DNA of 56,968 nt from a virus. The translations under genes and the position numbers were made by a program. Below the pieces are notes generated by a model, which worked only from the letters and a program-made list of their open reading frames with translations, searched no databases and had not been told where the DNA came from. The first letter of the stretch is position 1. Each line of letters starts with the position of its first letter. Below are positions 1-52,434 of this stretch, piece by piece. The DNA lies in the IMG/VR virus record IMGVR_UViG_3300043786_001191, positions 1 to 56,968 of that record; one strand, written 5' to 3'.

Positions 1-64
1 TGTTGACATGAATCTGCAGGCTGCGGACGATGCGGAGCAGGCGTTCGGCGGTGTTCTTGTCCAT
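1..64 (-). CDS. Partial small early protein, N-terminus only
   Basis: The first 21 codons of a minus-strand gene that leaves the window. The peptide begins MDKNTAERLLRIVRSLQ, a basic amphipathic helix. The ATG at 62-64 lies exactly 6 nt after the -10 box of a strong sigma70 promoter (71-99), so the start codon should coincide with the transcription start and the mRNA would be leaderless. Function is unknown. It is the first of the GC-rich one-gene cassettes. Confidence 0.55.
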   Translation of the reverse strand, partial: MDKNTAERLLRIVRSLQIHVN

Positions 65-70
65 GGCGGG

Positions 71-99
71 ATTCTACCTCAAAGTTTGGGATGCGTCAA
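71..99 (-). promoter_or_regulatory. Sigma70 early promoter, 17-bp spacer
   Basis: Minus strand: -35 TTGACG (94-99), 17-bp spacer, -10 TAGAAT (71-76). It points at the partial gene starting at 64, with 6 nt between the -10 box and the ATG. Confidence 0.85.
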
Positions 100-149
100 C
101 CCACTTGCACGATATTTCTAATTTCTTTCTGCCGGCCCCTGAAACAACC

Positions 150-267
150 TAGCCCCGAACGAATCGGGGCAGGGATCGAAATCCTCTTCGGTTGCTGACT
201 GGGCTATGCGGATTTCAGTCCACACGGACTAGGGCACATTGTACCCCATCCCGCACAGGCCAGCCAA
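150..267 (-). ncRNA. Candidate structured small RNA with its own weak promoter
   Basis: The gap between two minus-strand genes (65-271) has no ORF but much structure on the minus strand. A possible promoter has -10 TACAAT (238-243) and -35 TTGGCT (262-267), 18 bp apart. Just downstream lies a 5-bp hairpin (226-230 with 217-221) followed by GAAAT, which resembles a CRISPR repeat hairpin plus tail. Next is a 7-bp long-range pairing (210-216 with 178-184) and then a GC hairpin (152-158 with 164-170) that could end the transcript. A tRNA was considered but the arms do not fit. Transcription is inferred only. Confidence 0.35.
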
Positions 268-271
268 TCGT

Positions 272-484
272 TTAGCTCATGGGAGTTTCGTAGTTCTCGC
301 GGATGTAGTTGTCCTCGGTCATCTCAAGGTCGCGGATCCAGTCCTCGCGGTCAGCGGCCTCGCGTTCCGCGTAGTAGCCGTCCATATCGGCCTCGCAGTC
401 CGGGCAGAGGTCAGCGACCTCGGAGAGGATCAGAGCGCCGCAGGCGCGGCAGTTGCAGGGGTTGTCGGCGGGGGTGATGGTCAT
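272..484 (-). CDS. Small zinc-ribbon protein, early cassette
   Basis: A 70-residue acidic protein of unknown function. Near the N-terminus it has a CxCxxC motif (NPCNCRACG) and 15 or so residues later a CPDC pair, which together look like a small zinc ribbon. The rest is Asp/Glu-rich helix. The gene has its own promoter at 491-519. The ATG (482-484) lies exactly 6 nt after the -10 box, so no ribosome binding site can be present and the mRNA is probably leaderless. Base composition is GC-rich like its neighbours and unlike the bulk of the window. Such small acidic zinc proteins are typical of phage early host-takeover genes, but no specific role can be assigned. Confidence 0.7.
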   Translation of the reverse strand: MTITPADNPCNCRACGALILSEVADLCPDCEADMDGYYAEREAADREDWIRDLEMTEDNYIRENYETPMS

Positions 485-490
485 GGGTGT

Positions 491-519
491 AGTATACCGT
501 TAGAGGCGGGATGTGTCAA
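491..519 (-). promoter_or_regulatory. Sigma70 early promoter, near-perfect consensus
   Basis: Minus strand: -35 TTGACA (514-519), 17-bp spacer, -10 TATACT (491-496). It serves the zinc-ribbon gene whose ATG is 6 nt downstream of the -10 box. Confidence 0.9.
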
Positions 520-529
520 GCGACTTGGA

Positions 530-563
530 GGGATGGGGGCCCGGATCTGCCGGCCCCCATCCC
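530..563 (-). terminator. GC hairpin terminator
   Basis: A 12-bp perfect stem (530-541 with 552-563) around a 10-nt loop, between the stop of the 576-1025 gene and the next promoter. There is no clear U-tract, so termination is inferred from position and strength. Confidence 0.6.
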
Positions 564-575
564 GTCCGCCGGGGG

Positions 576-1025
576 TCAGGTCGCTAGCGCAGCTCCCTTC
601 TCAATGCAGGCCACGATGCCCTGCCCGATCATGTCGTTCAGCATCCCGATCACGCTCTCGGGCAGTTGTCTCTCGGAACGCTTCACCGTCACATCTCCGT
701 TACAGAAGTTGTCCACGCTGAACTCAATCGGGTAGAGGATGCGGAACTCGCTCCAACCGATCAGCTCCCCGGACTCGCTTTCCTCCCAGTCGATGCTCAC
801 CTCTCCGGTCAGCGTGCCGGGAACCCCGGTCAGCGATTCGACACCCAATTCAGGCGAATCGCTCGCCACCGCGTACTGCGCGTCGAAAGTGAACCCGATA
901 TCGGAGCGGCGCACTCCCGTCTTCAAGTCGCGCTCGGCGTAGAGGTCCACGGTTAGCTCATCCTCCGGGATGCGGCGCTCGGCGTAGTATACATTCAGGT
1001 TGAAGAGGTGCGTCAGGGTCTTCAT
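576..1025 (-). CDS. Unknown 149-residue early protein
   Basis: A 149-residue acidic protein starting MKTLTHLFNLNVYYAE. It appears to be a compact alpha/beta protein with several beta-strand-like stretches and no motif I recognise. The ATG at 1023-1025 is chosen over an upstream in-frame start at 1097 because the upstream start lies inside the promoter (1069-1097). The inferred transcript has a leader of about 37 nt carrying a GCCCC/GGGGC hairpin just before an AAAGG sequence. That hairpin recurs before two other genes here. A hairpin terminator follows the gene at 530-563. It is a single-gene cassette of unknown role. Confidence 0.7.
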   Translation of the reverse strand: MKTLTHLFNLNVYYAERRIPEDELTVDLYAERDLKTGVRRSDIGFTFDAQYAVASDSPELGVESLTGVPGTLTGEVSIDWEESESGELIGWSEFRILYPIEFSVDNFCNGDVTVKRSERQLPESVIGMLNDMIGQGIVACIEKGAALAT

Positions 1026-1038
1026 GGCTGTTGCCTTT

Positions 1039-1051
1039 GCCCCATCGGGGC
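1039..1051 (-). promoter_or_regulatory. Leader hairpin GCCCC/GGGGC
   Basis: A 5-bp GC stem with a 3-nt loop in the leader of the 576-1025 gene, directly before AAAGGCA. The same arrangement occurs at 1401-1413 (minus strand) and 1816-1829 (plus strand), each in a leader of about 37 nt. Confidence 0.55.
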
Positions 1052-1068
1052 GGTTGGGTGTTACGGGG

Positions 1069-1097
1069 AGTGTATCAGATCGGGAAGGATGAGTCAA
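1069..1097 (-). promoter_or_regulatory. Sigma70 early promoter, 17-bp spacer
   Basis: Minus strand: -35 TTGACT (1092-1097), 17-bp spacer, -10 TACACT (1069-1074), about 37 nt before the ATG at 1025. Confidence 0.85.
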
Positions 1098-1105
1098 GGG
1101 ACTTG

Positions 1106-1130
1106 GGGGGCCGGGATTGTCCCGGCCCCC
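1106..1130 (-). terminator. Strong GC hairpin terminator
   Basis: A perfect 11-bp stem (1106-1116 with 1120-1130) with a 3-nt loop, immediately after the stop of the 1142-1387 gene and before the next promoter. There is no U-tract. Confidence 0.65.
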
Positions 1131-1141
1131 GTCACCCTGCG

Positions 1142-1387
1142 TCAGTCATCGATGCTGATGACCTCCGCGCTGCGGCAGGAGCGCCACGCCATCCGCTCCA
1201 AGTCGTAGTAGGTCACGATTTCCTCGGTGCGGGGCTTGGCGACCCCCTTCGGGCGGTGATCCGCCGGGATCAGGTCAAGGACGGTGGTGCCCGTCGCGGG
1301 GCGCGTCGTGCCGTCGATCTTGCGGAAGGTGAACTGGACGGTGCCACCCGCGAGGCGGGTACGGAGGGTGCGGTGCAGGTCGCTCAT
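1142..1387 (-). CDS. WYL_2 (DUF2693)-like Sm/SH3-barrel protein, copy 1
   Basis: An 81-residue protein that I assign to the small phage beta-barrel family annotated as WYL_2 or DUF2693. The signs are an N-terminal beta-hairpin (TVQFTFRKIDGTTRP, about 16-30) and a C-terminal stretch YYDLERMAWRSCRSAEVISI with the family's W-R-S near the end. The family is small, common in tailed phages and presumed regulatory; its exact role is unknown. A second, longer and AT-rich copy lies at 4950-5501. The start at 1387 is chosen because it follows a 37-nt leader with the shared GCCCC/GGGGC hairpin. It has its own promoter and its own terminator. Confidence 0.7.
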   Translation of the reverse strand: MSDLHRTLRTRLAGGTVQFTFRKIDGTTRPATGTTVLDLIPADHRPKGVAKPRTEEIVTYYDLERMAWRSCRSAEVISIDD

Positions 1388-1400
1388 TACTAGTGCCTTT

Positions 1401-1413
1401 GCCCCGTTGGGGC
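1401..1413 (-). promoter_or_regulatory. Leader hairpin GCCCC/GGGGC
   Basis: A 5-bp stem with loop GTT in forward reading, in the leader of the WYL_2-like gene and just before AAAGGCA. It matches the hairpin at 1039-1051. Confidence 0.55.
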
Positions 1414-1430
1414 GGTAAGAGGATGCGTGC

Positions 1431-1459
1431 ATCTTACAGCATCGTCGGAGATGCTGCAA
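1431..1459 (-). promoter_or_regulatory. Sigma70 early promoter, 17-bp spacer
   Basis: Minus strand: -35 TTGCAG (1454-1459), 17-bp spacer, -10 TAAGAT (1431-1436), about 37 nt from the ATG at 1387. Confidence 0.8.
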
Positions 1460-1535
1460 CCCACTTGGGCGAAAGTTTGCAAAGTTTCTGCGACCGGCCA
1501 GCACCAGGCCCAGGCACCGGACGCATGGGCATGAG

Positions 1536-1564
1536 TTGACGCATCGGCGGGGATCGGTTAGAAT
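1536..1564 (+). promoter_or_regulatory. Sigma70 early promoter, 17-bp spacer
   Basis: -35 TTGACG (1536-1541), 17-bp spacer, -10 TAGAAT (1559-1564). The ATG of the next gene (1571) follows after exactly 6 nt. Confidence 0.88.
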
Positions 1565-1570
1565 GCCCGT

Positions 1571-1759
1571 ATGTGCAACACCCACACAAACGCTCTCTCC
1601 CCCACGCCTTTCTGCGCGCGTTGCGAGCGCAGGAAGGGCGAAGTCATCAACGGCGAAGCCGTAGTACTCAGGAACGGCCTCTGCCAAGATTGCGAGGCTG
1701 AGGAGGCAAACTGGCTCGCCTACGAGCGCGCCATGGAAGCCCCCGGTGAGGACTGGTGA
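1571..1759 (+). CDS. Small double-CxxC zinc protein, leaderless early gene
   Basis: A 62-residue protein with two CxxC pairs (FCARCERR near residue 14 and LCQDCEAEE near residue 38), consistent with one zinc ribbon, followed by an acidic helix. Function is unknown. The ATG begins 6 nt after the -10 box TAGAAT, so the predicted mRNA has no leader and no ribosome binding site. The gene is GC-rich and followed within 10 nt by another promoter (1769-1797). It resembles the minus-strand zinc protein at 272-484 in size and design, though the sequences are not clearly related. Confidence 0.7.
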   Translation: MCNTHTNALSPTPFCARCERRKGEVINGEAVVLRNGLCQDCEAEEANWLAYERAMEAPGEDW

Positions 1760-1768
1760 CCGCATGGA

Positions 1769-1797
1769 TTGACGCATCTGCCCGGAAGTGGTAAGAT
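1769..1797 (+). promoter_or_regulatory. Sigma70 early promoter, 17-bp spacer
   Basis: -35 TTGACG (1769-1774), 17-bp spacer, -10 TAAGAT (1792-1797). The expected start near 1804 gives a 37-nt leader to the GTG at 1841. Confidence 0.87.
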
Positions 1798-1815
1798 GCC
1801 CCCATCACCCTAACA

Positions 1816-1829
1816 GCCCCAGACGGGGC
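1816..1829 (+). promoter_or_regulatory. Leader hairpin GCCCC/GGGGC before the RBS
   Basis: A 5-bp GC stem (1816-1820 with 1825-1829) with a 4-nt loop, directly followed by the ribosome binding site GGAG at 1831-1834. It is the plus-strand counterpart of the hairpins at 1039-1051 and 1401-1413. Confidence 0.55.
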
Positions 1830-1840
1830 AGGAGACACCC

Positions 1841-2056
1841 GTGGCCTACACCACCACCAACTTCAAGACCAAGAAGGCGCTCAAGGAGGCCGTTGCATCG
1901 GGCGCGACCGTGACGGTCTTCCAGCCGAACGATATGTTCGGGGACGGCAGCGTGAGGGATGGCTCGGCGTGCGTCGAAGGCCCCCACTACCCGCAGCCGC
2001 ACCGCTGGTACGCGCAGGTTGAGGTGCGGGACGGGAGGATCGTAAAGGTCAAGTAG
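1841..2056 (+). CDS. Conserved small phage protein, GTG start
   Basis: A 71-residue protein with basic N-terminus MAYTTTNFKTKKALKEAV and a C-terminal half rich in short beta strands ending in VRDGRIVKVK. Proteins of this type are widespread in tailed phages as short conserved unknowns. The GTG start at 1841 is supported by the GGAG six nt upstream and by the inferred 37-nt leader. It is followed by a hairpin terminator (2080-2103), so it is another single-gene cassette. It is the last GC-rich gene before composition drops to AT-rich. No function can be assigned. Confidence 0.75.
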   Translation: MAYTTTNFKTKKALKEAVASGATVTVFQPNDMFGDGSVRDGSACVEGPHYPQPHRWYAQVEVRDGRIVKVK

Positions 2057-2079
2057 CCCCCACCAACTCAACCCTCCAG

Positions 2080-2103
2080 GCCCCTGCTGCAACCGGCAGG
2101 GGC
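2080..2103 (+). terminator. Hairpin terminator
   Basis: An 8-bp stem (2080-2087 with 2096-2103) followed by a weak T-containing tail, 24 nt after the stop of the 1841-2056 gene. Confidence 0.65.
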
Positions 2104-2172
2104 TTGTGCATTTGTCAAGAGCTGCCAGGTCATTCTCACAAACTTAATATTCATAAATTTCTGGTATTCGAC

Positions 2173-2201
2173 TTGACAAGCTACGAAGTTTGTGGTAGAA
2201 T
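2173..2201 (+). promoter_or_regulatory. Sigma70 promoter, 17-bp spacer
   Basis: -35 TTGACA (2173-2178), 17-bp spacer ending AAGTTTGTGG, -10 TAGAAT (2196-2201). An ATG follows after exactly 6 nt (2208). Its spacer 3' half is repeated in the promoter at 2240-2268. Confidence 0.85.
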
Positions 2202-2207
2202 TGAAGA

Positions 2208-2243
2208 ATGCCACCACCACCAAGGCGCTGGCACTCAAGTTGA
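2208..2243 (+). CDS. Possible 11-residue leaderless peptide
   Basis: ATG at 2208 sits 6 nt after the -10 box of the promoter at 2173-2201 and opens an 11-codon frame (MPPPPRRWHSS). The position fits the leaderless rule seen elsewhere in the window, but the peptide is tiny and proline-rich and could be chance. Its stop overlaps the -35 box of the next promoter. Confidence 0.25.
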   Translation: MPPPPRRWHSS

Positions 2244-2268
2244 CAGAGCTCAAAGTTTGTGGTAGAAT
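2240..2268 (+). promoter_or_regulatory. Sigma70 promoter, 17-bp spacer
   Basis: -35 TTGACA (2240-2245), 17-bp spacer ending AAGTTTGTGG, -10 TAGAAT (2263-2268). It is nearly a duplicate of the promoter 67 bp upstream. Confidence 0.85.
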
Positions 2269-2299
2269 ACAGGTAGCTGAACAGCCAGGGAGAGGGGGA

Positions 2300-2359
2300 A
2301 TGCAGCTAGCCGTAGTATACCACACCGACATCGATGTGTCAACTTTAGTACCGGAGTAG
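2300..2359 (+). CDS. Possible 19-residue peptide
   Basis: A 19-codon frame (MQLAVVYHTDIDVSTLVPE) starting 5-10 nt after a purine run, GGGAGAGGGGGA, that could be a strong ribosome binding site, and 31 nt downstream of the -10 box at 2263-2268. It overlaps a minus-strand promoter (2314-2342). Coding is uncertain. Confidence 0.3.
   Translation: MQLAVVYHTDIDVSTLVPE
2314..2342 (-). promoter_or_regulatory. Sigma70 promoter, 17-bp spacer, facing left
   Basis: Minus strand: -35 TTGACA (2337-2342), 17-bp spacer, -10 TATACT (2314-2319). It faces the two plus-strand promoters at 2173 and 2240. No minus-strand gene is evident downstream. Confidence 0.8.
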
Positions 2360-2378
2360 AGCTAGGCACGCTACCCTC

Positions 2379-2407
2379 ATTATACCATGGGGGAGGGGGT
2401 GTGTCAA
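2379..2407 (-). promoter_or_regulatory. Sigma70 promoter, perfect boxes, facing left
   Basis: Minus strand: -35 TTGACA (2402-2407), 17-bp spacer, -10 TATAAT (2379-2384). Both hexamers are perfect. It lies in tandem with the promoter at 2314-2342. Confidence 0.85.
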
Positions 2408-5724: not shown

Positions 5725-6759
5725 ATGATTGTCAACTACGAACCCAAATTGGATTACTCCGATGTGCTTATCATGCCATCGCTTTCGGATGTTAAGTCTC
5801 GCAAAGAAGTGAATCTTGAAGTGGAGACCACATTCAAGTGTGGATCTTCTTGGAAAGGCATTCCAATCATGGCAGCAAACATGTCAACGGTTGGAACTCA
5901 CAAGATGGCAGAGGTTCTTTCCGAATACAAGATTGTGACATGTCTTCGCAAAGGTGGAAATTATTATTCTGCTTTTGTGAATATGCATCCTGAAAAAGAA
6001 CCATATGTTTCTTTGACTCTTGGATTGGATTCCGACAGCAAACTGTTCGTTGATACTTCCGAGATTCATGACCCGACTTTCATTTGCCTTGATGTGGCAA
6101 ATGGTTACATGACGGAGTTTCATAACTTTACAAGAAAGGTTAGAGAAAAATGGCCCAAGTCAATATTGATTGCAGGGAATGTTGTGACCCCAGAGGGGGT
6201 AGAGGCGTTGTCAACGGCTGGCGCAGACCTCGTAAAAGTGGGAATCGGCTCGGGGTCGATGTGTCTGACCCGGCGAGTGGCAGGGGTGGGATATCCCCAA
6301 CTCTCCGCAGTGCTAGAGTGTGTGGAAACAGCCGATCAATTAGGTATTGGGATCGTTGCTGACGGTGGAATAAATTATCCCGGTGACTTTGCAAAGGCAT
6401 TTGTCGCTGGTTCGGCTTTCGTCATGGCTGGTGGCATGTTTACTGGCCATGACGAGTGTGGTGGAGAGATTCGACACAAGGAGCATGGAGAGCTCACAAT
6501 GTTGCATTATGGAATGAGCAGTCGAACTGCGAATGAAAAATACAGCGGTGGGCTTTCCTATTATCGTGCATCCGAAGGACGCACAGTGGAGGTCCCATAT
6601 CGTGGATCTGTACGCAATACGGTACAAGAAATTTTTGGTGGTATTCGCTCGGCTTGTTCTTATGTTGGCGCTTTTGACTTGCCTTCTCTGTATTCCAATG
6701 GTAAACTAATCAAAGTTAATCGCACCACAAACAATATTTTTGAAACTAACGAAATATGA
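5725..6759 (+). CDS. guaC: GMP reductase
   Basis: A 344-residue TIM-barrel enzyme of the IMP dehydrogenase/GMP reductase family. GMP reductase converts GMP to IMP with NADPH and releases ammonia, salvaging guanine nucleotides toward adenine nucleotides. Full length matches bacterial GuaC (about 347). The start KLDYSDVLIMPSLSDVKSR, the loop VKVGIGSGSMCLTRRVAG with the catalytic Cys at about 180, the GYPQLSAV and VADGGI motifs and the C-terminal YGMSS, YRASEGRTV and GIRSACSYVGA segments are GuaC-like. There is no CBS domain, which argues against IMP dehydrogenase. The ATG is 7 nt after its -10 box, so the mRNA is probably leaderless. Codons around the catalytic loop (about 6185-6330) are noticeably GC-richer than the rest of the gene. 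Confidence 0.9.
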   Translation: MIVNYEPKLDYSDVLIMPSLSDVKSRKEVNLEVETTFKCGSSWKGIPIMAANMSTVGTHKMAEVLSEYKIVTCLRKGGNYYSAFVNMHPEKEPYVSLTLGLDSDSKLFVDTSEIHDPTFICLDVANGYMTEFHNFTRKVREKWPKSILIAGNVVTPEGVEALSTAGADLVKVGIGSGSMCLTRRVAGVGYPQLSAVLECVETADQLGIGIVADGGINYPGDFAKAFVAGSAFVMAGGMFTGHDECGGEIRHKEHGELTMLHYGMSSRTANEKYSGGLSYYRASEGRTVEVPYRGSVRNTVQEIFGGIRSACSYVGAFDLPSLYSNGKLIKVNRTTNNIFETNEI

Positions 6760-42992: not shown

Positions 42993-43655
42993 ATGGCAAA
43001 ACTATTAATCAAATTTCCAACCCGTAATAGACCTGAAAAATTTAAAAAAGTGTTACAAAGATACATCGATGGGCTTTCTGGCAAACATGATGTAAAATTT
43101 GTAATAACAATGGATCATGATGATTCCACAATGAATACGCCAGAAATTAAAGAATGGTTGAATTCATTGCCTGTAAAAATTAAATACAACTATGGTTATT
43201 CTAAATCTAAAATTGAAGCAGTCAATGCTGATTTAGAAAATGAGGAGGCCGATGTGTTGCTTTTGGCATCTGATGACATGATACCACAGTTAAAAAACTA
43301 TGATGACATAATTTTTGATTGTTTTAGACAAGTGTTTCCAACATTTGATGGTGCAATAAAGTTCCATGATGGATTGAGAAATGATGATCTGATGACATTG
43401 TGTGTAATGGGCTGGCCCCTATACAAAGAATTTGGATACATTTATCATCCAGAATACACTTCTGTGTATGCCGACAATGAACAAACAATTGTTTTGAAAA
43501 AAATGAATAAGTTTGCAACATCCGATACTTGTATCATCAAACATGATTGGTCTCCAGAACCATGGGATGATCTTCATGCAAGAAATGAAAATTCTGAAAT
43601 GTATCAAAAAGACAAGTCAATTTTTGACAAACACATGAAAGAATTGTTTGCATGA
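42993..43655 (+). CDS. GT2-like glycosyltransferase, first gene of the glycan island
   Basis: A 220-residue GT-A fold protein. LLIKFPTRNRPEKFKKVL, FVITMDHDDST and VLLLASDDMIP (the D-x-D-like metal site, about 89-99) are typical of family 2-like transferases. The donor cannot be read from the sequence. It is less AT-rich than later genes in the cluster. It overlaps the next gene by 4 bp (ATGA). Confidence 0.75.
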   Translation: MAKLLIKFPTRNRPEKFKKVLQRYIDGLSGKHDVKFVITMDHDDSTMNTPEIKEWLNSLPVKIKYNYGYSKSKIEAVNADLENEEADVLLLASDDMIPQLKNYDDIIFDCFRQVFPTFDGAIKFHDGLRNDDLMTLCVMGWPLYKEFGYIYHPEYTSVYADNEQTIVLKKMNKFATSDTCIIKHDWSPEPWDDLHARNENSEMYQKDKSIFDKHMKELFA

Positions 43656-44332
43656 TAAAATATTTGACATACTTGAATAGTGGATGTAAAGACATATGTG
43701 ACAACATGTTGTTGTCTGCATCTAATGTTGGTATATCAAAAGGTGAATTTAAAATTATTGCGTTTGACAAACCAATTTATGATTATTATTCCAATAAAGG
43801 AATTGATATTGATTTGTATTTAGATTCACCTGAAGAAAAATATCATGAATGGAGTTGGGATATTAATTCTAAATTTAGACATTTAGTAAAAAATAAATGG
43901 TCTATTATAAAAAATCAATATACAAAATATAAAAACCTAGTTTGGTTAGATACTGATGTTGTATTTTTTAAAAATCCTCTAGATGAATTAAAAAATTGTT
44001 TGGTACCAACTTTTCAAGTTGATTATCCAGTTGCATGTGCATGTACTGGATTTATGTATTTTCCAAACAATAATTTGAGTGAAAAAATTGTAAACGATCT
44101 AGGATCGCAAAATACAGAAGATGATCAACTAATTTGCAACAGTTATTTAAGATCCAATTCTATACAAAATCAAATCAAGTTTTTTGATTTAAATTTGTTT
44201 CCGAATGGAAGTTATTTTTACGATCACAAAGGATCTGATAAAAATACGGCAATTATTTTGCATTGTAATTACATCTTGGGTTTAGAAAACAAGATAAATA
44301 GATTGAAAGACATTGGAGCTTGGTATCTGTGA
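43652..44332 (+). CDS. Glycosyltransferase with DxD motif (GT77-like)
   Basis: A 226-residue nucleotide-diphospho-sugar transferase. YKNLVWLDTDVVFFKNPLDE (about 92-111) is the DxD metal-binding strand; ACTGFMYFPNN and NTEDDQLICNSY downstream fit the GT77/nucleotide-diphospho-sugar transferase pattern. It overlaps both neighbours, so it is in a coupled operon. Donor and acceptor unknown. Confidence 0.75.
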   Translation: MIKYLTYLNSGCKDICDNMLLSASNVGISKGEFKIIAFDKPIYDYYSNKGIDIDLYLDSPEEKYHEWSWDINSKFRHLVKNKWSIIKNQYTKYKNLVWLDTDVVFFKNPLDELKNCLVPTFQVDYPVACACTGFMYFPNNNLSEKIVNDLGSQNTEDDQLICNSYLRSNSIQNQIKFFDLNLFPNGSYFYDHKGSDKNTAIILHCNYILGLENKINRLKDIGAWYL

Positions 44333-45168
44333 TTTATTCTAGAGAAGATTTAAGACCAATTCCAACATATCCAACTTATCCTCCGTATCATGTGGGGGAT
44401 TATTTGGAAGACTATTTTTACAATAAATTTGTTGAAAAAAAATTAACGTTAACTAGAGACTACATTGGTATCAGTTGGACAACTCTATACTGTCAAAACC
44501 AAGATCAACAAATCCAATCATTTTTAAATAGTTTGGATCCAAGTAAGAAGTATTTCACTGTCTGCCAGCACGATGATGCTCCACGGCATATTCTTCCACC
44601 AGACACCATTTGTTTTTCTGCGGGTGGAAATGTAAACGGACCAAATATAAAACCAATCCCACTTATTTGCTCTCCTATACCAATAAAACCTATTGAAAAC
44701 AAAAAACAATACTTGGCCTCTTTTGTTGGTTCATTTACTCACCCAATAAGAGCAAGAATGGCTCACAAATTACAATATTTGTCAGATTACAAAATACTGA
44801 TAAAAATGTGGAACCCCACCGTTGAAAAATCAGAAATGGATGTTTTTTTTAATTTGGCAAGTCAAAGCAAATATTTACTCTGCCCAAGAGGATATGGTCT
44901 AAATTCATTTAGATTGTACGAAGCATTTCAATTAGGGTGTGTTCCCGTAATTATAACAGATAAATTCTTCTTACCTTGGACTGATGAATTAAATTGGAAT
45001 GATTTTTCTGTATTGATTGATGAATCAAAAATTGATCACATTGATGATGTATTAAAAAATATAAATGAAGATCAATACCATAAAATGGTTACAATTGGAA
45101 AAAATTTGTATCCAAAGTATTTTACTTTAGATGCTTTAGTTGAAAATATTACAAAAAGATTATTATGA
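44329..45168 (+). CDS. Exostosin-like glycosyltransferase (GT47 type)
   Basis: A 279-residue GT-B fold transferase. The exostosin signature is visible: YLASFVGSFTHPIRARM, then SKYLLCPRGYGLNSFRLYEA and LGCVPVIITDKFFLPW. The GTG at 44329 overlaps the upstream stop (GTGA), which fits the coupled operon better than the TTG at 44320. GT47 enzymes in eukaryotes and giant viruses transfer GlcA, Xyl, Gal or Ara; specificity here is unknown. Confidence 0.82.
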   Translation: MIYSREDLRPIPTYPTYPPYHVGDYLEDYFYNKFVEKKLTLTRDYIGISWTTLYCQNQDQQIQSFLNSLDPSKKYFTVCQHDDAPRHILPPDTICFSAGGNVNGPNIKPIPLICSPIPIKPIENKKQYLASFVGSFTHPIRARMAHKLQYLSDYKILIKMWNPTVEKSEMDVFFNLASQSKYLLCPRGYGLNSFRLYEAFQLGCVPVIITDKFFLPWTDELNWNDFSVLIDESKIDHIDDVLKNINEDQYHKMVTIGKNLYPKYFTLDALVENITKRLL

Positions 45169-45890
45169 AAAAAATATTATTTGTCATAGCCAATTATTCA
45201 GACTGGAAGCAAAGGTTTTTTGAAAACAATTTTTCTCCCAGAAATAAAAAATTTGCTGATATGCATGGTTATGAGTATATCGTAAGTTTTGGTGGACTTT
45301 TGTTCCGAAATAATCCAACTTGGTGGAAATTTACACTTGTCAAAGAAATGATTGACAATGGTACTCTTCAAGATGGAGATGAGTTACTGCATTTAGATGC
45401 GGATATGAGAATAGACAAGTTTGATAAAGACTATCCATGCAATAAATCATTTACGGTATGCATAGACAACGGAAATACATTTTGTATGGGTTCATATAAA
45501 TTAAAAATCAATGATTGGTCTAAACAATTAATCTATAATATTCTTGATGAAAAATTATGGTTAAAGAAACAACACGATCCTCATTGGATGTCGTTTCGTG
45601 AGCAAGCTGCTTTTTACACTTTGTGTGGTGTAGTCCCTCATAGTTGGGTTTCATTTCTAGAATTGCCAAATTACGGCTGGCACCAAAATAAAACTGAGGA
45701 TACGGTGTATTCTCTAGAAGAATTGCACAAAAATGTTGAAGTTTTGGGACCAGAGTGGAATACTACGTTATTGTCCGAAGAAGAAAATAAAATTGGTCCA
45801 GCTCTAATGAAATACAATATTACAAAATCTAAAAAGGAAGACACAATTATTAGACACTTTGCTGGAGGACAAGTGTGGAAAATAATATAA
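45165..45890 (+). CDS. Glycosyltransferase, GT34-like
   Basis: A 241-residue protein. MKKILFVIANYSDWKQRFF opens a Rossmann-like strand; NPTWWKFTLVKEMIDNG and ELLHLDADMRIDKFD (about 74-88) carry the DxD site as in GT34 galactosyl/xylosyltransferases. FREQAAFYTLCG and RHFAGGQVWK fit the C-terminal part. Overlaps both neighbours in the operon. Confidence 0.72.
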   Translation: MKKILFVIANYSDWKQRFFENNFSPRNKKFADMHGYEYIVSFGGLLFRNNPTWWKFTLVKEMIDNGTLQDGDELLHLDADMRIDKFDKDYPCNKSFTVCIDNGNTFCMGSYKLKINDWSKQLIYNILDEKLWLKKQHDPHWMSFREQAAFYTLCGVVPHSWVSFLELPNYGWHQNKTEDTVYSLEELHKNVEVLGPEWNTTLLSEEENKIGPALMKYNITKSKKEDTIIRHFAGGQVWKII

Positions 45891-47002
45891 TGTTTTATGA
45901 TTATTTAATCGTGGGAGCAGGATTTTTTGGTTCAGTTTTTGCTAGATTAGCAACAGATGATGGAAAAAAATGTTTGGTAATAGATAAAAGAAACCATATT
46001 GCTGGGAATTGTTACACCGAATCTATTGAAAATATAAATGTTCATGTTTATGGACCTCATATTTTTCATACAAATGACAAAAATATTTGGAATTTTGTAA
46101 ATCGTTTTGCAGAATTTAATAATTTTATTCTTTCCCCAAAATCTAAAAGTAAAGATAAATTGTATTCACTACCATTTAATATGAATACTTTTTATGAAAT
46201 ATGGAATACAAAAACTCCAGAAGAAGCTAAACAAAAAATAGAAGAACAAAAATTTAAAGGAATTCCTTCGAATTTAGAAGAACAAGCATTGTCTTTAGTA
46301 GGCAAAGATGTATATGAAATTTTAATTAAAGACTATACTACCAAGCAATGGGGAAAATTACCAAAAGAATTACCACCTTTTATAATTAAAAGATTACCAG
46401 TACGATTTACTTACGACAATAATTATTTTAATGATCGTTATCAAGGCATTCCGGTAGGAGGATATACAAAATTATTTGAAAATATATTAAAGGATATTGA
46501 AGTAGTTTTAAATGTTGACTATTTAAAAAATAAAAACTATTACAATAATATTGCCAAATACGTAGTATATACTGGCTGCATCGATGAATTTTTTAATTAT
46601 GAATTTGGGAAGTTAGATTATCGTTCTTTAGAATTTAAAACAGAAATACTTGAAACAAAAAATTATCAGGGATGTGCAATTATGAATTATAATGATGTCA
46701 ACATTCCTTGGACACGTATTGTAGAACATAAACATTTTGAAAAATGTGATTCAGAAAAAACAGTAATCACAAAAGAATATCCAAAAAAATATGAAATAGG
46801 GTCTACTCCTTATTATCCAATCAATGATGAAAAAAATAATAGTATTTACAAAAAATATAAAGAAAAAACAAAAACATATTCAAATATTATATTTGGTGGT
46901 AGACTAGCCGAGTATAAATATTATGACATGCACATGGTCATTGCTTCAGCAATGACAAAATATAAAAATCATATTAGTGGTAATATAGAGAAAGAATTAT
47001 GA
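45890..47002 (+). CDS. glf: UDP-galactopyranose mutase
   Basis: A 370-residue flavoenzyme that converts UDP-galactopyranose to UDP-galactofuranose. The FAD Rossmann motif is YLIVGAGFFGSVFA (about 5-18) with VIDKRNHIAGNCYTE; YGPHIFHTNDKNIWNF, VGKDVYEILIKDYTTKQWG and VYTGCIDEFFNYEFGKLDYRSLEF are characteristic of Glf. ATG 45890 overlaps the upstream stop (TAATG) and is preferred to 45875. It is the only sugar-nucleotide enzyme in the island, so a galactofuranose-containing glycan is likely. Confidence 0.93.
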   Translation: MFYDYLIVGAGFFGSVFARLATDDGKKCLVIDKRNHIAGNCYTESIENINVHVYGPHIFHTNDKNIWNFVNRFAEFNNFILSPKSKSKDKLYSLPFNMNTFYEIWNTKTPEEAKQKIEEQKFKGIPSNLEEQALSLVGKDVYEILIKDYTTKQWGKLPKELPPFIIKRLPVRFTYDNNYFNDRYQGIPVGGYTKLFENILKDIEVVLNVDYLKNKNYYNNIAKYVVYTGCIDEFFNYEFGKLDYRSLEFKTEILETKNYQGCAIMNYNDVNIPWTRIVEHKHFEKCDSEKTVITKEYPKKYEIGSTPYYPINDEKNNSIYKKYKEKTKTYSNIIFGGRLAEYKYYDMHMVIASAMTKYKNHISGNIEKEL

Positions 47003-47934
47003 TAAAAAAACAAACCATAACTGTCGATTTTGTAGATTTTTGGCCAAATTTTGTTAAAAATGATAATTATTTTTATCATCTATTGAGTCAAGAATATGAT
47101 GTAATAATAACCGAAAATAAACCCGATCTTTTGTTTCATAGTGTAGACTATTTTAGACAACAGGGACATAAAAAATATAATAACAACCACACTAAAAAAA
47201 TTTACTATACGGCAGAGCCACCACATATCCATAGACCAGATTATAACGAAAGTCATTTCTCTTTTACATATGAAGATACTGGGGATAGTAGAAATTATAG
47301 ATTACCACTGTGGGTATTGCATTTAAATTGGTTTAATGTACCACATTCAGATGATAGAGATCAGTCTTATCTCCATTCGATTGAAGAGTTTTTAAAACCA
47401 AAAGATGCAGAATATTTGTGGGATACCAAAAAAGAATTTTGCTCTTTTATTAACACTCAACCATTTGGTAGGAGAGTAGAATTTGTTCCCAAGTTAAATC
47501 AAACTCAATTTGTTCATTGTGCTGGGCGTTTATATAATAATGTAAATGGGAATATAATTGGAAGAGGTGATCAAAGGTGGAAAATAGAATATCTAAAACA
47601 TTTTAAATTTAATGTAAGTATGGAAAACTGTGATGATTATGGATATGTAAGTGAAAAAATTATTCATGGAATGTTTGCAAACTGTATTCCAATTTATTGG
47701 GGATCGAATGCCGTAATCAAAGATTTTAATTCAAAATCTTACATTAATTGGCATAATTTTAATAATGATGAAGAAACTATTGAAAAAGTTATGGAACTAA
47801 ACACAAATAAAGTAAAATATTGTGAAATGATGTCTCAACCATGGTTTTATAATAATGAAATACCTATTAATGTTCAACCAAAAACAATTTTAAATTTTAT
47901 AAATGAAAGAATATTAAACAATGCCACTAGATAA
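46999..47934 (+). CDS. Fucosyltransferase-like GT10 protein
   Basis: A 311-residue protein. The C-terminal domain has the GT10 alpha-1,3-fucosyltransferase motif: FKFNVSMENCDDYGYVSEKI followed by MFANCIPIYWGSNAV (about 210-245). The N-terminal acceptor domain is divergent (KIYYTAEPPHIHRPDYNESH). Fucose or a related 6-deoxyhexose donor is suggested, but no GDP-fucose genes are in the window, so the host would have to supply it. Confidence 0.82.
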   Translation: MIKKQTITVDFVDFWPNFVKNDNYFYHLLSQEYDVIITENKPDLLFHSVDYFRQQGHKKYNNNHTKKIYYTAEPPHIHRPDYNESHFSFTYEDTGDSRNYRLPLWVLHLNWFNVPHSDDRDQSYLHSIEEFLKPKDAEYLWDTKKEFCSFINTQPFGRRVEFVPKLNQTQFVHCAGRLYNNVNGNIIGRGDQRWKIEYLKHFKFNVSMENCDDYGYVSEKIIHGMFANCIPIYWGSNAVIKDFNSKSYINWHNFNNDEETIEKVMELNTNKVKYCEMMSQPWFYNNEIPINVQPKTILNFINERILNNATR

Positions 47935-48454
47935 AAATGGAAAAGATTTATTACTTTATAAAAATAATTGTAAAATTTTTATAGAAACCGGATCTGCCGA
48001 TGGTGGGGGAATAGAATCAGCACTTAAAGCAGGATTTGAAAAAATTTTTAGTATTGAATTAAATCCCGATTTATATAATAAATGCAAAGAAAAATTTAAA
48101 AATCAGAGTAATGTTTATCTATACTGTGGAAGTTCTGAGATATTCTTAAAACAAATAATAGAAATTGTGGATCAGCCATTTTTATTGTGGTTAGATGCTC
48201 ATTACTCAGGTGGTCCATACATTGGCGATTTGATGCATAATTATTTACCAAAAGAATTAAGTTCTATAACACATCTTGTTCATAAATTTAAAAATTCACC
48301 AATATTAATTGATGATATGAATTTTTATATTAATGATAAAACTTTTTGCAGTAATGTAGAAAATTTGTTAAAACAAATAAAACCTGATGGAAATATCAAA
48401 TATGAGCAATCTTGTGATCAAGAAGCCAAAAGTTTGTTTTTAACAGTGTTATAA
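47921..48454 (+). CDS. SAM-dependent methyltransferase (Methyltransf_24-like)
   Basis: A 177-residue class I methyltransferase-like protein. KIFIETGSADGGGIESAL (about 18-35) is the SAM-binding loop; FSIELNPDLYNKCKEKF is the acidic second strand; LLWLDAHYSGGPYIGD the catalytic region. In a sugar cluster it probably methylates a sugar hydroxyl. It overlaps the fucosyltransferase gene by 14 bp. Confidence 0.72.
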   Translation: MPLDKNGKDLLLYKNNCKIFIETGSADGGGIESALKAGFEKIFSIELNPDLYNKCKEKFKNQSNVYLYCGSSEIFLKQIIEIVDQPFLLWLDAHYSGGPYIGDLMHNYLPKELSSITHLVHKFKNSPILIDDMNFYINDKTFCSNVENLLKQIKPDGNIKYEQSCDQEAKSLFLTVL

Positions 48455-48465
48455 AAATTATATAA

Positions 48466-49101
48466 ATGAACAATCAATTAATTATAGCTCGTTATAATGA
48501 AGATTTATTTTGGCTAAATGAATGGCAAAGTCAATTTGATATTGTCGTTTATAATAAAGGAAAAGATGATTTAAAACAAGATTATAAAATTATCAATCTT
48601 CCTAATATCGGACGAGAAGCCCACACGTATCTTTATCATATTGTAAATAATTATGATACTTTAGCTGAAAATAATATTTTTTTACAAGGAAACATCAAAG
48701 ATCTCGGTCCCAATGTTTATCAAGATTTAAATTGTTATCTAAATGAAATAAAAGAAAAAGGATATTCTGCCAATGGTGTGTACTATACCTGTGGTAATTA
48801 TTATAAAAATATAGATTTTTTAGCAGATCCTTTATACAAGGATCAAGTTTTATCTAAACATTTTAGACTTTCTGATATTACTTTTAAAGATTATATTTTA
48901 AAACATTTTAAAGTTCTTCCAGTATGTATGATATATTCAATGAAAGGTTGTTTTGGTGTTAGTAAAAAAAATATACAAAGTAGACCAAAAGAATTTTATT
49001 TAAATTTGTTAGACTCTATACCGGACTATCATACAGTCGAAGAAGCACATTTTTTAGAAAGACTTTGGGCATTTATATTCACTGAAAAGGTAAATTTATA
49101 A
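48466..49101 (+). CDS. DUF3431-family protein, glycosyltransferase-like
   Basis: A 211-residue protein of the DUF3431 type seen in fungi, algae and giant viruses. QLIIARYNEDLFWLNEWQSQ, VVYNKGKDDL, IINLPNIGREAHTYLYHIVN and NIFLQGNIKDLG (with a His in the motif) are the family signature. The family is thought to be a GT-A type transferase. It starts 11 nt after the methyltransferase gene. Confidence 0.75.
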   Translation: MNNQLIIARYNEDLFWLNEWQSQFDIVVYNKGKDDLKQDYKIINLPNIGREAHTYLYHIVNNYDTLAENNIFLQGNIKDLGPNVYQDLNCYLNEIKEKGYSANGVYYTCGNYYKNIDFLADPLYKDQVLSKHFRLSDITFKDYILKHFKVLPVCMIYSMKGCFGVSKKNIQSRPKEFYLNLLDSIPDYHTVEEAHFLERLWAFIFTEKVNL

Positions 49102-49748
49102 TGACATATTCTTTACACGAATTAGATGATAAATTGTTAAAATATTTATTTTATGAAAATGGATTTTTTATTGAAGCTGGTGCAAATGATGGTGTAGCAC
49201 AATCTAATACCTTATTATTTGAACAAAAATTAAATTGGAAAGGTATTTTAATAGAACCAAACCCACACAAAGCAAACTTATGTAAAATAAATCGACCAAA
49301 TTCCATTGTTGAACATTGTGCTTTGGTTAGCAAAAATTATAATCACCCTTTTATTGAAGGTGATTTTAATCATAATGATTATGCCAATAGTTTAATGAGT
49401 ATGGTTTTAGACGAGGGTGATGAGTGTGATTTAAATTACAAAAATCATAAAAATTATAAAAAAAACCATGAAAATATTATATCAGTACCAGCCAAAACCT
49501 TAACATCAATTTTAGAATTTTATAAAGTAAAAAAAATAGATTTACTTTCTTTAGATGTAGAGGGATATGAAATTTCTGCATTAAATGGATTAAATTTTAT
49601 TCAATTTTCTCCACTCTATTGTTTAATAGAAACAACAACAGATGAAAATAGAATTACCATGATAACCGCATATATGAATGACAATAATTATAATGTGATT
49701 GAAAGATTGTCTGGAAATGATTTTTTGTTTAAGTTAAAAAATGATTGA
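49101..49748 (+). CDS. FkbM-family methyltransferase
   Basis: A 215-residue SAM enzyme. GFFIEAGANDGVAQSNTLLF (about 16-35) is the glycine-rich SAM motif, ILIEPNPHKANLCKINRPNS the second strand, and IDLLSLDVEGYEISALNGL the FkbM signature near 150. Such enzymes O-methylate sugars in polysaccharide clusters. It overlaps its upstream neighbour by one base and the next gene by 8 bp. Confidence 0.88.
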   Translation: MTYSLHELDDKLLKYLFYENGFFIEAGANDGVAQSNTLLFEQKLNWKGILIEPNPHKANLCKINRPNSIVEHCALVSKNYNHPFIEGDFNHNDYANSLMSMVLDEGDECDLNYKNHKNYKKNHENIISVPAKTLTSILEFYKVKKIDLLSLDVEGYEISALNGLNFIQFSPLYCLIETTTDENRITMITAYMNDNNYNVIERLSGNDFLFKLKND

Positions 49749-50424
49749 CATTAAAACATATATTTTACATTGTAAAAAATTTAAAGAAAGAAAATTATTT
49801 ATTACAAATCAAATAAATAATTTATTTTCTAATTATGAATTTTATGAAAATTATGATGGTGACGAACTTACTACAGAAATTATAAACAAATATTATGATC
49901 CATCTCCAGAAAAACAATTATTCAAATTTAAATTATGGTTTGAACAAAATAGGGGCCACGCAGTGGCAAGACTTTTAAATACATCAGAAATTTCTTTAAC
50001 TATAAAACATTATGAAGTTTTGCAAAAAATTGCATACTCTTCTGATCCATATGCAATTGTTTTGGAAGATGATGTAATATTTGATTCAAATTTTTTACAA
50101 TTATTTCAAAAATATTTAAGTGAAACACCAAAAAATTTTGATGTTGTTTTTATGGGTTCTGGTGCAAATTTAAAACCAACAAATATTATACCAGATAAAA
50201 TCTGGTATTTAAAAACACATCCGGCTTCTAAATGTGCAGACTCATATTTAATAACAAAAAAAGCGGCTAATGAAATAGTTCAAACATATACTCCATTTAA
50301 TATCTGCTCTGATTATGAATTAGCATATCAAATGTATCTACACAATCATAAAGTATATTGGTGGGAACCATCTTTAGTAAAACAAGGTTCGGAAATGGGA
50401 TTATTTAAATCATCTTTAAGGTAA
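49741..50424 (+). CDS. GT25 (LPS-type) glycosyltransferase
   Basis: A 227-residue protein. IKTYILHCKKFKERKLFI, SEISLTIKHYEVLQKIAYSS, AIVLEDDVIFDSNFLQLF (D-x-D/E-D-D motif, about 104-121) and SYLITKKAANEIV are the GT25 pattern, as in LPS galactosyltransferases and giant-virus collagen glycosyltransferases. Strongly AT-rich. Partner in the same operon. Confidence 0.88.
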   Translation: MIDIKTYILHCKKFKERKLFITNQINNLFSNYEFYENYDGDELTTEIINKYYDPSPEKQLFKFKLWFEQNRGHAVARLLNTSEISLTIKHYEVLQKIAYSSDPYAIVLEDDVIFDSNFLQLFQKYLSETPKNFDVVFMGSGANLKPTNIIPDKIWYLKTHPASKCADSYLITKKAANEIVQTYTPFNICSDYELAYQMYLHNHKVYWWEPSLVKQGSEMGLFKSSLR

Positions 50425-50430
50425 ATATAA

Positions 50431-51525
50431 ATGAAAAAAATTGCTTGTATTAAATTTGCAGGATTCGCAACTGGCGGTACAGAAAAAGCTTTGCAAAATA
50501 TTGCAGTTACTTTAGCAGAATCAAAAAAATATCATGTAGATTACTATTACACCAACGCAGCACCATTTTTAAATTGTAATTTTGTGCATCCAGATAATTC
50601 TTTAGAACAAAAAAAATGGGTTGAATCTTATGGTGTTAAATCTATTCCCGTTTTTGTAGAATCAAAAATTGGAAACAAATCACCCTTTGAATGGAATAAT
50701 ACAAATTTTTGGAATTTGTTTAAAGAATCTGATTATGATGTAATACAAACAGCAAGAGGGGGATACACGGAGTATCCGTTTAATTTAATAAATCATACTC
50801 CTATTATTGATGGAATACACAGCGATGCTGGTGAGGATAAACCAAACATCAAAAAAGCAATATTGATTTCCAAATGGCAAGCCGACAAATGGGCTTCAAA
50901 TGGTGGGAATATAAAAAAAGCTGTTATTATACCAAATTTAGTATTTGTCCCAGAAAAAAAACCAAGTACGTTAAGAAGCAGATTAAACATACCAGAAGAT
51001 GCATTTGTTTTTGGTTTTCATCAAAGAAATGACCCAGCTCTGTTTTCGCCTGTTGCATTACAGGCATATCAACACATTCAAAAAGAAAATGTTTATTTTG
51101 TTTTACTTGGTGGGAGTGACAGACATCGCCAGTATGCTAAAGAAAATAATTTAAAAAATGTGTATTTTTTAAATTTTACTCCAGATTTAAATGAAATACA
51201 TGATTTTTTAGAGGGTATTGATGTTTATTCACATTCTAGACTTGATGGCGAAGTTTGCTCAGTTGCTATTATAGAAGCCATGTCACATGGTAAACCAATC
51301 GTCACTCATCCAGGAACAGTTTCTATGGGTCATTTAGAACAAATAGAAGGGTGTGGTTATATGGCTTACAACGTTGAAGAATATGCTAACAAACTTAAAC
51401 TAATTAAAGACAATAAAGAAATTTATTCTGCAATGAGTGAAAATACATTAAATAAGTATTTTGAAAAATATTCTTACCACAAAGTAAAACAACAAATTAT
51501 TGATCTTTATTCCGAAGTATTATAA
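50431..51525 (+). CDS. GT4-family glycosyltransferase
   Basis: A 364-residue GT-B transferase. IKFAGFATGGTEKALQNIAVTL forms the acceptor-side N-terminus (TGGTEK), and DVYSHSRLDGEVCSVAIIEAMSHGKPIVTHPGTV (given as two motifs: EVCSVAIIEAMSHG and GKPIVTHPG) the EX7E-type donor site of GT4. It is a retaining transferase by family. Seven bases separate it from GT25. Confidence 0.88.
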   Translation: MKKIACIKFAGFATGGTEKALQNIAVTLAESKKYHVDYYYTNAAPFLNCNFVHPDNSLEQKKWVESYGVKSIPVFVESKIGNKSPFEWNNTNFWNLFKESDYDVIQTARGGYTEYPFNLINHTPIIDGIHSDAGEDKPNIKKAILISKWQADKWASNGGNIKKAVIIPNLVFVPEKKPSTLRSRLNIPEDAFVFGFHQRNDPALFSPVALQAYQHIQKENVYFVLLGGSDRHRQYAKENNLKNVYFLNFTPDLNEIHDFLEGIDVYSHSRLDGEVCSVAIIEAMSHGKPIVTHPGTVSMGHLEQIEGCGYMAYNVEEYANKLKLIKDNKEIYSAMSENTLNKYFEKYSYHKVKQQIIDLYSEVL

Positions 51526-51543
51526 AAAATTATTAAAATAAAA

Positions 51544-52434
51544 ATGAATATTTTATTAGCATATCATTCTGTTCCTGAAAAGGATATTTGGAATACCCCA
51601 GTTGGAATTGGTAAATCTTTTCAAAAAAAGGGACATAATGTATTTTATGTCCCTAATTTAAATCCAAATAATTTAACTTTTGATAATATTTACACAAATA
51701 TAAATGACGCTGATTTTATTTTGTTTTGTTGGTGTGGTCCATCGGAATCTTTTGATTATGAAATAAAAAAATTAAAAAACAATACAAATAAAAAGATTTA
51801 TCTGGAATTAGGTGACGAACCACAAACTTTTTTATATAATCAAAAAAGAATATTTTTTGCGGATGGTCTATTAACACCTGATTTGAGATGTCATAAACAC
51901 TATCAAAGCAAAGGATTTCCTTCTTATTGGTTAACGCATTGGTGTGATGATAAAATTTTTTATAAAAAAGAAAATTCAAACAAAAAAAATATTTGTGTTA
52001 CAACATGCGGCAACAGGCCATTTGTAGACAAATTATCTGAAAAATTTAAAGACCAATTTATTAATCAAAAAGTTTGGAATTATGATAATACAGATTTTTT
52101 TAATTCAGGAACTGTTTGTTATCAATATGCTAGATATGATGAAATTACAAGAAGATTATTTGAAGCGGGTGGTTGTGGAAACGCTATATTGACAAATAGA
52201 ATCTCTCCTGAAAGTGGTATTTACGAATTGTTTACAGAAGATGAAGATATGGCTTTTTTTTCAACCGAAGAAGAATGTCTTGCAAAAATGGACAAACTCT
52301 TAAATGACAGTGTTTATAGAAATAAACTTTCAACTAATTTGTATAAAAAAATAACAAGTAAACATATGGTTGGTAATAGAGTGGATGAAATTATACGAAT
52401 TTATAATAACGATTCTTGTTTGCAAAAGGTATAA
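51544..52434 (+). CDS. CgeB-like glycosyltransferase
   Basis: A 296-residue GT-B protein with a C-terminal domain YDEITRRLFEAGGCGNAIL followed by DEDMAFFSTEEECLAKMDKLL, the pattern of CgeB-type spore-coat/glycosyltransferases. N-terminal MNILLAYHSVPEKDIWNTP is a Rossmann strand with a possible acceptor region. It is the last gene of the island, 71 bp before gp55. Confidence 0.75.
   Translation: MNILLAYHSVPEKDIWNTPVGIGKSFQKKGHNVFYVPNLNPNNLTFDNIYTNINDADFILFCWCGPSESFDYEIKKLKNNTNKKIYLELGDEPQTFLYNQKRIFFADGLLTPDLRCHKHYQSKGFPSYWLTHWCDDKIFYKKENSNKKNICVTTCGNRPFVDKLSEKFKDQFINQKVWNYDNTDFFNSGTVCYQYARYDEITRRLFEAGGCGNAILTNRISPESGIYELFTEDEDMAFFSTEEECLAKMDKLLNDSVYRNKLSTNLYKKITSKHMVGNRVDEIIRIYNNDSCLQKV

Follow-up and report, generated by a model that had tools for sequence, protein, structure and literature searches.

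Members of the T4 superfamily such as T4, RB69 and RB49 carry many sigma70-type promoters ahead of small, often novel open reading frames (ORFs) and transfer RNA (tRNA) genes (PMC1524935). Cluster K mycobacteriophages contain the ESAS/SAS elements, repeated and conserved SigA-like promoters with 17–18 bp spacing before small genes, and one Adephagia gene is predicted to be leaderless (PMC11373665). Among bacteria, Actinobacteria and Deinococcus-Thermus commonly have leaderless genes of the TA-led type, and Caulobacter also has numerous examples (PMC3160421, PMC4117421). Here we analysed a 56,968-nt viral sequence, the linear metagenomic IMG/VR contig IMGVR_UViG_3300043786_001191 (the whole stretch is called the window), which bears a cluster of sigma70-type promoters at positions 1–2407. 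We propose, with a probability of roughly 0.8, that these promoters belong to compact one-gene cassettes, mostly with predicted leaderless mRNAs, in a probably early island of a T4-like phage clade.

The window encodes a T4-type, gp23-like major capsid protein (53% identity to S-RSM4 over 96%) and, by profile search, the T4-type late sigma factor gp55 (phrog_234, E 6.7e-52). Its GC content is 60–64% over 1–2000 and ~38% in most of the remainder, with an abrupt shift at ~2.1–2.4 kb. We gathered relatives by searching with the IMPDH/GMP-reductase-like protein encoded at 5725–6756. Several of the 52 related loci obtained have a GC-rich island bearing the same promoter type, and many relatives with 76–97% identity in IMPDH share the island position and orthologous genes. 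We read the promoter cluster at 1–2407 as the cut edge of this conserved small-gene island.

A preliminary description of the window had reported ten near-consensus sigma70 promoters in this cluster, each with a 17-bp spacer. All ten -35/-10 pairs were found again with identical coordinates, strands and spacers. When scored as matches to TTGACA/TATAAT out of 12, nine of them reached 9–12: 71–99 (10), 491–519 (11), 1069–1097 (9), 1536–1564 (10), 1769–1797 (9), 2173–2201 (11), 2240–2268 (11), 2314–2342 (11) and 2379–2407 (12). 'Near-consensus' does not fit the tenth (1431–1459, TTGCAG/TAAGAT), which scored 7, escaped the scans and was examined by hand. In 1–2420, ten sites of at least 9/12 with a 17-bp spacer were counted, whereas 300 dinucleotide shuffles averaged 0.28 and never exceeded 3; the script applied a looser -10 rule and counts one site beyond the nine listed. 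Five sites reached at least 11/12, versus 0.003 expected from dinucleotide shuffles. A motif search over the rest of the contig, which the same description had suggested, found 0–8 such 17-bp sites in other 2.4-kb stretches amid many other spacings, as is usual for AT-rich DNA. The one-promoter-per-gene design was supported and is conserved in relatives. A tiny gene follows six of the ten promoters (those starting at 99, 519, 1097 and 1459 on the minus strand and at 1536 and 1769 on the plus strand); the four at 2173–2407 have no normal-sized ORF.

The preliminary description had overlooked the position of the start codon at the predicted +1. We surveyed ten related islands (84.5 kb) with the pattern TTGAC-N17-TANNNT and obtained 124 sites. 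An ATG begins exactly 6 nt past the -10 hexamer in 75 of them and 7 nt past it in 8, with ~2.2 expected per offset. As the last T of the -10 is at -7, the A of an ATG at the 6-nt offset is +1, and the mRNAs are therefore expected to be leaderless. In these 75 sites the start codon and the first T of the -10 are exactly 12 bp apart. They resemble in this the TA-led bacterial genes, in which TANNNT stands ~12 bp upstream of the start codon and the RNA is expected to begin there. TA-led genes are bacterial chromosomal genes, whereas the sequence here reads as a phage array with a near-fixed -35, a 17-bp spacer and a promoter for each tiny gene.

The full promoter-ATG pattern matched once in 120.5 kb outside the islands and was absent from 241 kb of Cr30, S-RSM4 and T4. 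ORFs of at least 39 codons are opened by 85 of 91 promoter-ATG units, and nonsynonymous divergence (dN) was below synonymous divergence (dS) in all ten island orthologue pairs, indicating selection on the ORFs. In 34 cases, exemplified by the related contig L071, an open frame of at least 35 codons terminates at a TGA within the TTGA of the next -35, so that the intergenic space is all promoter. Contigs with further leaderless-rich islands were found by pattern search. In one related contig, L111, such a region has about 46% GC, and the leaderless layout is therefore independent of high GC. A TTGCAG variant of the -35 occurs twice in L071 ahead of predicted leaderless ATGs.

Several observations weigh against this interpretation. 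Within the window, an ATG at +6 was found in just 4 of the 9 TTGAC sites, three genes are leadered, and four promoters lack a normal gene. Outside the island, 24 of the 60 larger genes of the window had a Shine-Dalgarno-like motif; leaderless initiation is thus not the sole mode. The related islands cannot be treated as independent samples, and several of the related contigs are fragments.

In composition and codon usage the island differs from the rest of the window, which the preliminary description also missed. In island ORFs AAA makes up 0.03 of the Lys codons, compared with 0.71 in the rest of the window, and the corresponding shares are 0.02 and 0.49 for AGA, 0.00 and 0.26 for ATA, 0.00 and 0.24 for TTA, and 0.04 and 0.50 for CCA; GC at third codon positions is 0.81 versus 0.31. 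Islands of relatives contain genes for tRNA-Lys(TTT), tRNA-Leu (CAA; TAA in one), tRNA-Arg(TCT) and tRNA-Ile(TAT), which serve several of the codons that island ORFs avoid; no tRNA gene was found in the window's own 2.4-kb island fragment. The codon and GC split could instead mean only that the island was acquired recently from a GC-rich source, and have no bearing on timing or tRNA use. The reshuffling of island gene content among relatives would suit such an origin, as would the kinship of the DUF7178 island protein, 73 of whose 74 matches are in Mycobacterium, Gordonia and Rhodococcus phages. We nevertheless regard it as rather unlikely, since an island whose position and orthologous genes recur in many relatives has been maintained, and since the tRNAs in these islands match codons that the island avoids.

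The promoters might also be ordinary T4-like early promoters, tightly packed before small Shine-Dalgarno-led early genes as in T4 or RB69. Early promoters ahead of small ORFs are indeed numerous in T4-like phages, with 57 predicted in RB69 (PMC1524935), and the leadered genes of the window would fit this explanation. We consider it improbable: in 75 of 124 sites the ATG coincides with the predicted +1 and leaves no room for a Shine-Dalgarno site, and 50 kb of T4 contained no leaderless promoter-ATG unit. The likeness to the T4-like class lies in sigma70-type -10/-35 elements upstream of small early ORFs, which this island has; the T4 early class has GTTTAC at the -35 and this clade TTGACA, and T4 has no GC-rich island. 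Caulobacter phage Cr30 is T4-like, with ~38% GC and an IMPDH/GMP-reductase homologue (39.8% identity), but has neither a leaderless unit nor a GC-rich promoter island in 150 kb. The early region of Xanthomonas phage XacN1 (AP018399) has 27 TTGAC-17-TANNNT sites in 45 kb of small genes and homologues of two proteins of this clade, but an ATG at +6/+7 in just 2 of the 27 and a uniform ~53% GC over that stretch. The cluster K elements share the repeated promoters ahead of small phage genes; they differ in number (seven copies), in having an inverted repeat plus a separate 13-bp start-associated sequence, and in belonging to a siphophage with no T4-like genes. Among 28 promoters of the window and its nearest relative, G001, no conserved sequence was seen beyond the -35, CATC, -10 and ATG, the 13-bp sequence and a 17-bp inverted repeat not having been specifically searched for. 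The predicted leaderless one-gene cassette layout was not found in the known T4-like phages tested, and a full-text literature search, with most subscription papers outside its scope, found no description of such an array in a T4-like phage.

The CATC that follows the -35 raises the question of a regulator. TTGACRCATC occurs five times in 1–2407 and nowhere else in the 57 kb. In the window and G001, positions 7–10 after the start of the -35 read CATC, with 0.75, 1.69, 0.75 and 1.49 bits, beyond the needs of core sigma70 recognition, and CATC may be a further, putative binding site. The pairs could accordingly be primarily operator sites of a phage protein, with promoter likeness secondary. We give this very little probability, because CATC is lost in other lineages, which keep the -35 (TTGACA in all lineages), the -10, the 17-bp spacing and the ATG position, so that the promoter is the conserved part; the two functions could coexist. 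For the GC-rich 2.1 kb, the abrupt GC change at the extreme end of a linear contig might point to contaminating host DNA or to a chimera of the assembly. This explanation has next to no probability and was rejected: G001 (97% on the IMPDH/GMP-reductase-like protein) has the same junction and an orthologous gene, aligns with the window to the island edge and has island sequence in common, which shows the join to be genuine. Longer contigs, among them the 137-kb G005, also have equivalent islands in their interior.

In the cassette model, host RNA polymerase would read the TTGACA-17-TANNNT promoter of each cassette. With the ATG mostly exactly 6 nt past the -10, transcription would start at the initiation codon and give a leaderless mRNA for translation; a smaller share of cassettes would instead have a leader of ~37 nt with a hairpin. 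Each small gene would have its own promoter because a leaderless ORF needs a 5'-terminal AUG, which should be unreachable in mid-message. Early expression is suggested by sigma70-type promoters in a phage with a T4-type late sigma gene. Written in GC-rich, presumably host-like codons, the island proteins could be made with host tRNAs; that these codons match those of the host is a guess. The tRNAs for A/T-rich codons in relatives' islands would prepare translation of the phage's AT-rich genes. A host-takeover role for the island genes, which the preliminary description had thought likely, is plausible but a guess.

Four units of the window are predicted to be leaderless, three of them with ORFs of ordinary size or cut by the contig end. 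On the minus strand, the promoter TTGACG-17-TAGAAT at 71–99 has its ATG at 64, 6 nt past the -10, and the ORF (MDKNTAERLLRIVRSLQIHVN..., 1–64) is truncated by the contig end. The promoter TTGACA-17-TATACT at 491–519 (minus), also with an ATG 6 nt past the -10, precedes a 70-aa ORF at 272–484 with a weak zinc-ribbon match (G001 orthologue 80% over 65 aa, dN 0.12, dS 0.40). On the plus strand, TTGACG-17-TAGAAT at 1536–1564 has an ATG at the same distance, opening a 62-aa ORF (1571–1759).

The three leadered units have a predicted leader of ~37 nt with a GCCCC-loop-GGGGC hairpin, and a similar leader hairpin was seen in L071. Two are on the minus strand: the promoter TTGACT-17-TACACT (1069–1097), its leader (1027–1063, hairpin GCCCC-GAU-GGGGC) and a 149-aa orphan ORF (576–1025), for which an IMG/VR search found no relatives; and the weak promoter TTGCAG-17-TAAGAT (1431–1459) with an 81-aa WYL_2 protein (1142–1387), assigned by profile match (PF10902, phrog_1086). 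The third, on the plus strand, comprises TTGACG-17-TAAGAT (1769–1797), a leader at 1804–1840 with the hairpin GCCCC-AGAC-GGGGC followed by AGGAG, and a 71-aa orphan ORF with a GTG start (1841–2056). The hairpin terminators of the preliminary description stood in part: GC-rich hairpins do follow several genes, and that at 2071–2118 (plus), 3' of the 1841–2056 gene, is terminator-like, but those at 535–561 (within 530–566) and 1107–1133 (within 1101–1140), both on the minus strand and 3' of the 149-aa and WYL_2 genes, have no U-run.

The promoters at 2173–2407 are not ordinary gene promoters, a point beyond the preliminary description. Two rightward and two leftward promoters converge on a partly symmetric sequence with no normal ORF. 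TTGACA-17-TAGAAT at 2173–2201 (plus) has an ATG 6 nt past the -10 and opens a predicted leaderless ORF of 11 codons (2208–2243, plus), whose TGA stop lies within the -35 of the next promoter (2240–2268, plus), which has no ATG at +1. Opposing the latter is 2314–2342 (minus), in tandem with the perfect 12/12 promoter at 2379–2407 (minus). Face-to-face pairs in L076 (8971/9036) and L033 (77/142) have inverted repeats, CTACTTGGT...ACCAAGTAG, just past the -10, comparable to 2240/2342 of the window. The nest might serve to make small RNAs or act as a control site. At tandem sites in L072 and L076, CTACTTGGT promoters stand ~75 bp upstream of leaderless promoters.

A conserved structured RNA element lies at 142–194 (minus), with an outer stem and two inner hairpins followed by a U-rich stretch. 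It spans ~50 nt, or 75 nt including a 5' hairpin in relatives, and occurs with ~79–96% identity in nearly all relatives, often just past a stop codon and before a U-run (L071, L072, L075–L079, L081, L082 and L084–L087). In a four-helix model, 96.9% of cells were paired and 7 pairs were changed on both sides; none of 500 shuffles reached this, and sliding the partners abolished the pairing. Rfam covariance models gave no match to it at E<=5 in the window and just tRNA hits in five relatives. Its position at or near gene 3' ends in relatives suggests that it is probably a terminator or 3'-end element. A second recurrent element, probably structured, was seen in L071 (12690–12790 and 15905–16020) and L077 (13230–13130 and 12360–12280, minus); it consists of CTACTATCA ... 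TGATAGTAG arms around a GC-rich hairpin, then a GGAC...TTAT-GGACG-like sequence.

Island products are mostly orphan proteins, typically of 45–190 aa, and profile matches gave a name only to WYL_2, the weak zinc-ribbon, DUF7178 and an AAA ATPase. Islands also contain large genes of the AAA type (CobS-like in cyanophages) and the VWA/CobT-like type, the CobT-like label being given by eye, behind TTGCAG or TTGAC leaderless promoters (L071 16061–16400 and 17966 onward; L111 8086–11519). ARAGORN called a permuted tmRNA, possibly a false positive, at 6244–6643 (minus) of L073, in G005. Elsewhere in the window, an AT-rich block at 42993–52434 (25–34% GC) has ORFs that read as glycosyltransferase-like and methyltransferase-like beside structural genes.

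A cyanophage (Kyanoviridae-like) host was rejected, as a psbA-type photosystem gene (Photo_RC) was absent from all 21 clade records tested, most of them fragments. WhiB, tried as an actinobacterial marker, was absent from 17 records and uninformative on the host. GTDB genomes (binned contigs) gave no match to the exact pattern of the RNA element or to the IMPDH protein. Another island protein matched solely proteobacterial phages, and given this kinship beside that of DUF7178, no host is named. The single-cell marine virus AG-345-F15 and Cr30 were tried as holders of the same island, both with negative results.

The T4-type late promoter core TAAATA was found 4–8 nt ahead of the ATG in 7 of 67 window genes and 9 of 50 G005 genes, and in none of 63 (T4), 50 (S-RSM4) or 186 (Cr30) genes. 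This position fits leaderless late mRNAs for some genes. We tentatively suggest, at slightly less than even odds, that leaderless mRNAs are a major route of initiation throughout this T4-superfamily clade, early through host sigma70 and late through gp55-type promoters. An early island in host codons, supplying tRNAs for AT-rich late genes, would then form with it a programme of transcription and translation in two stages, fixed by codon usage and by where the start codon lies.

The cassettes offer a testable reason for one promoter per gene, namely that leaderless ORFs need their own 5' ends, and a natural system for studying how leaderless mRNAs compete for ribosomes. They also provide a route to short early phage genes possibly overlooked by gene callers that rely on Shine-Dalgarno sites. 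Dozens of small, unstudied proteins are encoded in the islands, which also contain a new structured RNA element and may give clues to the host of this clade.

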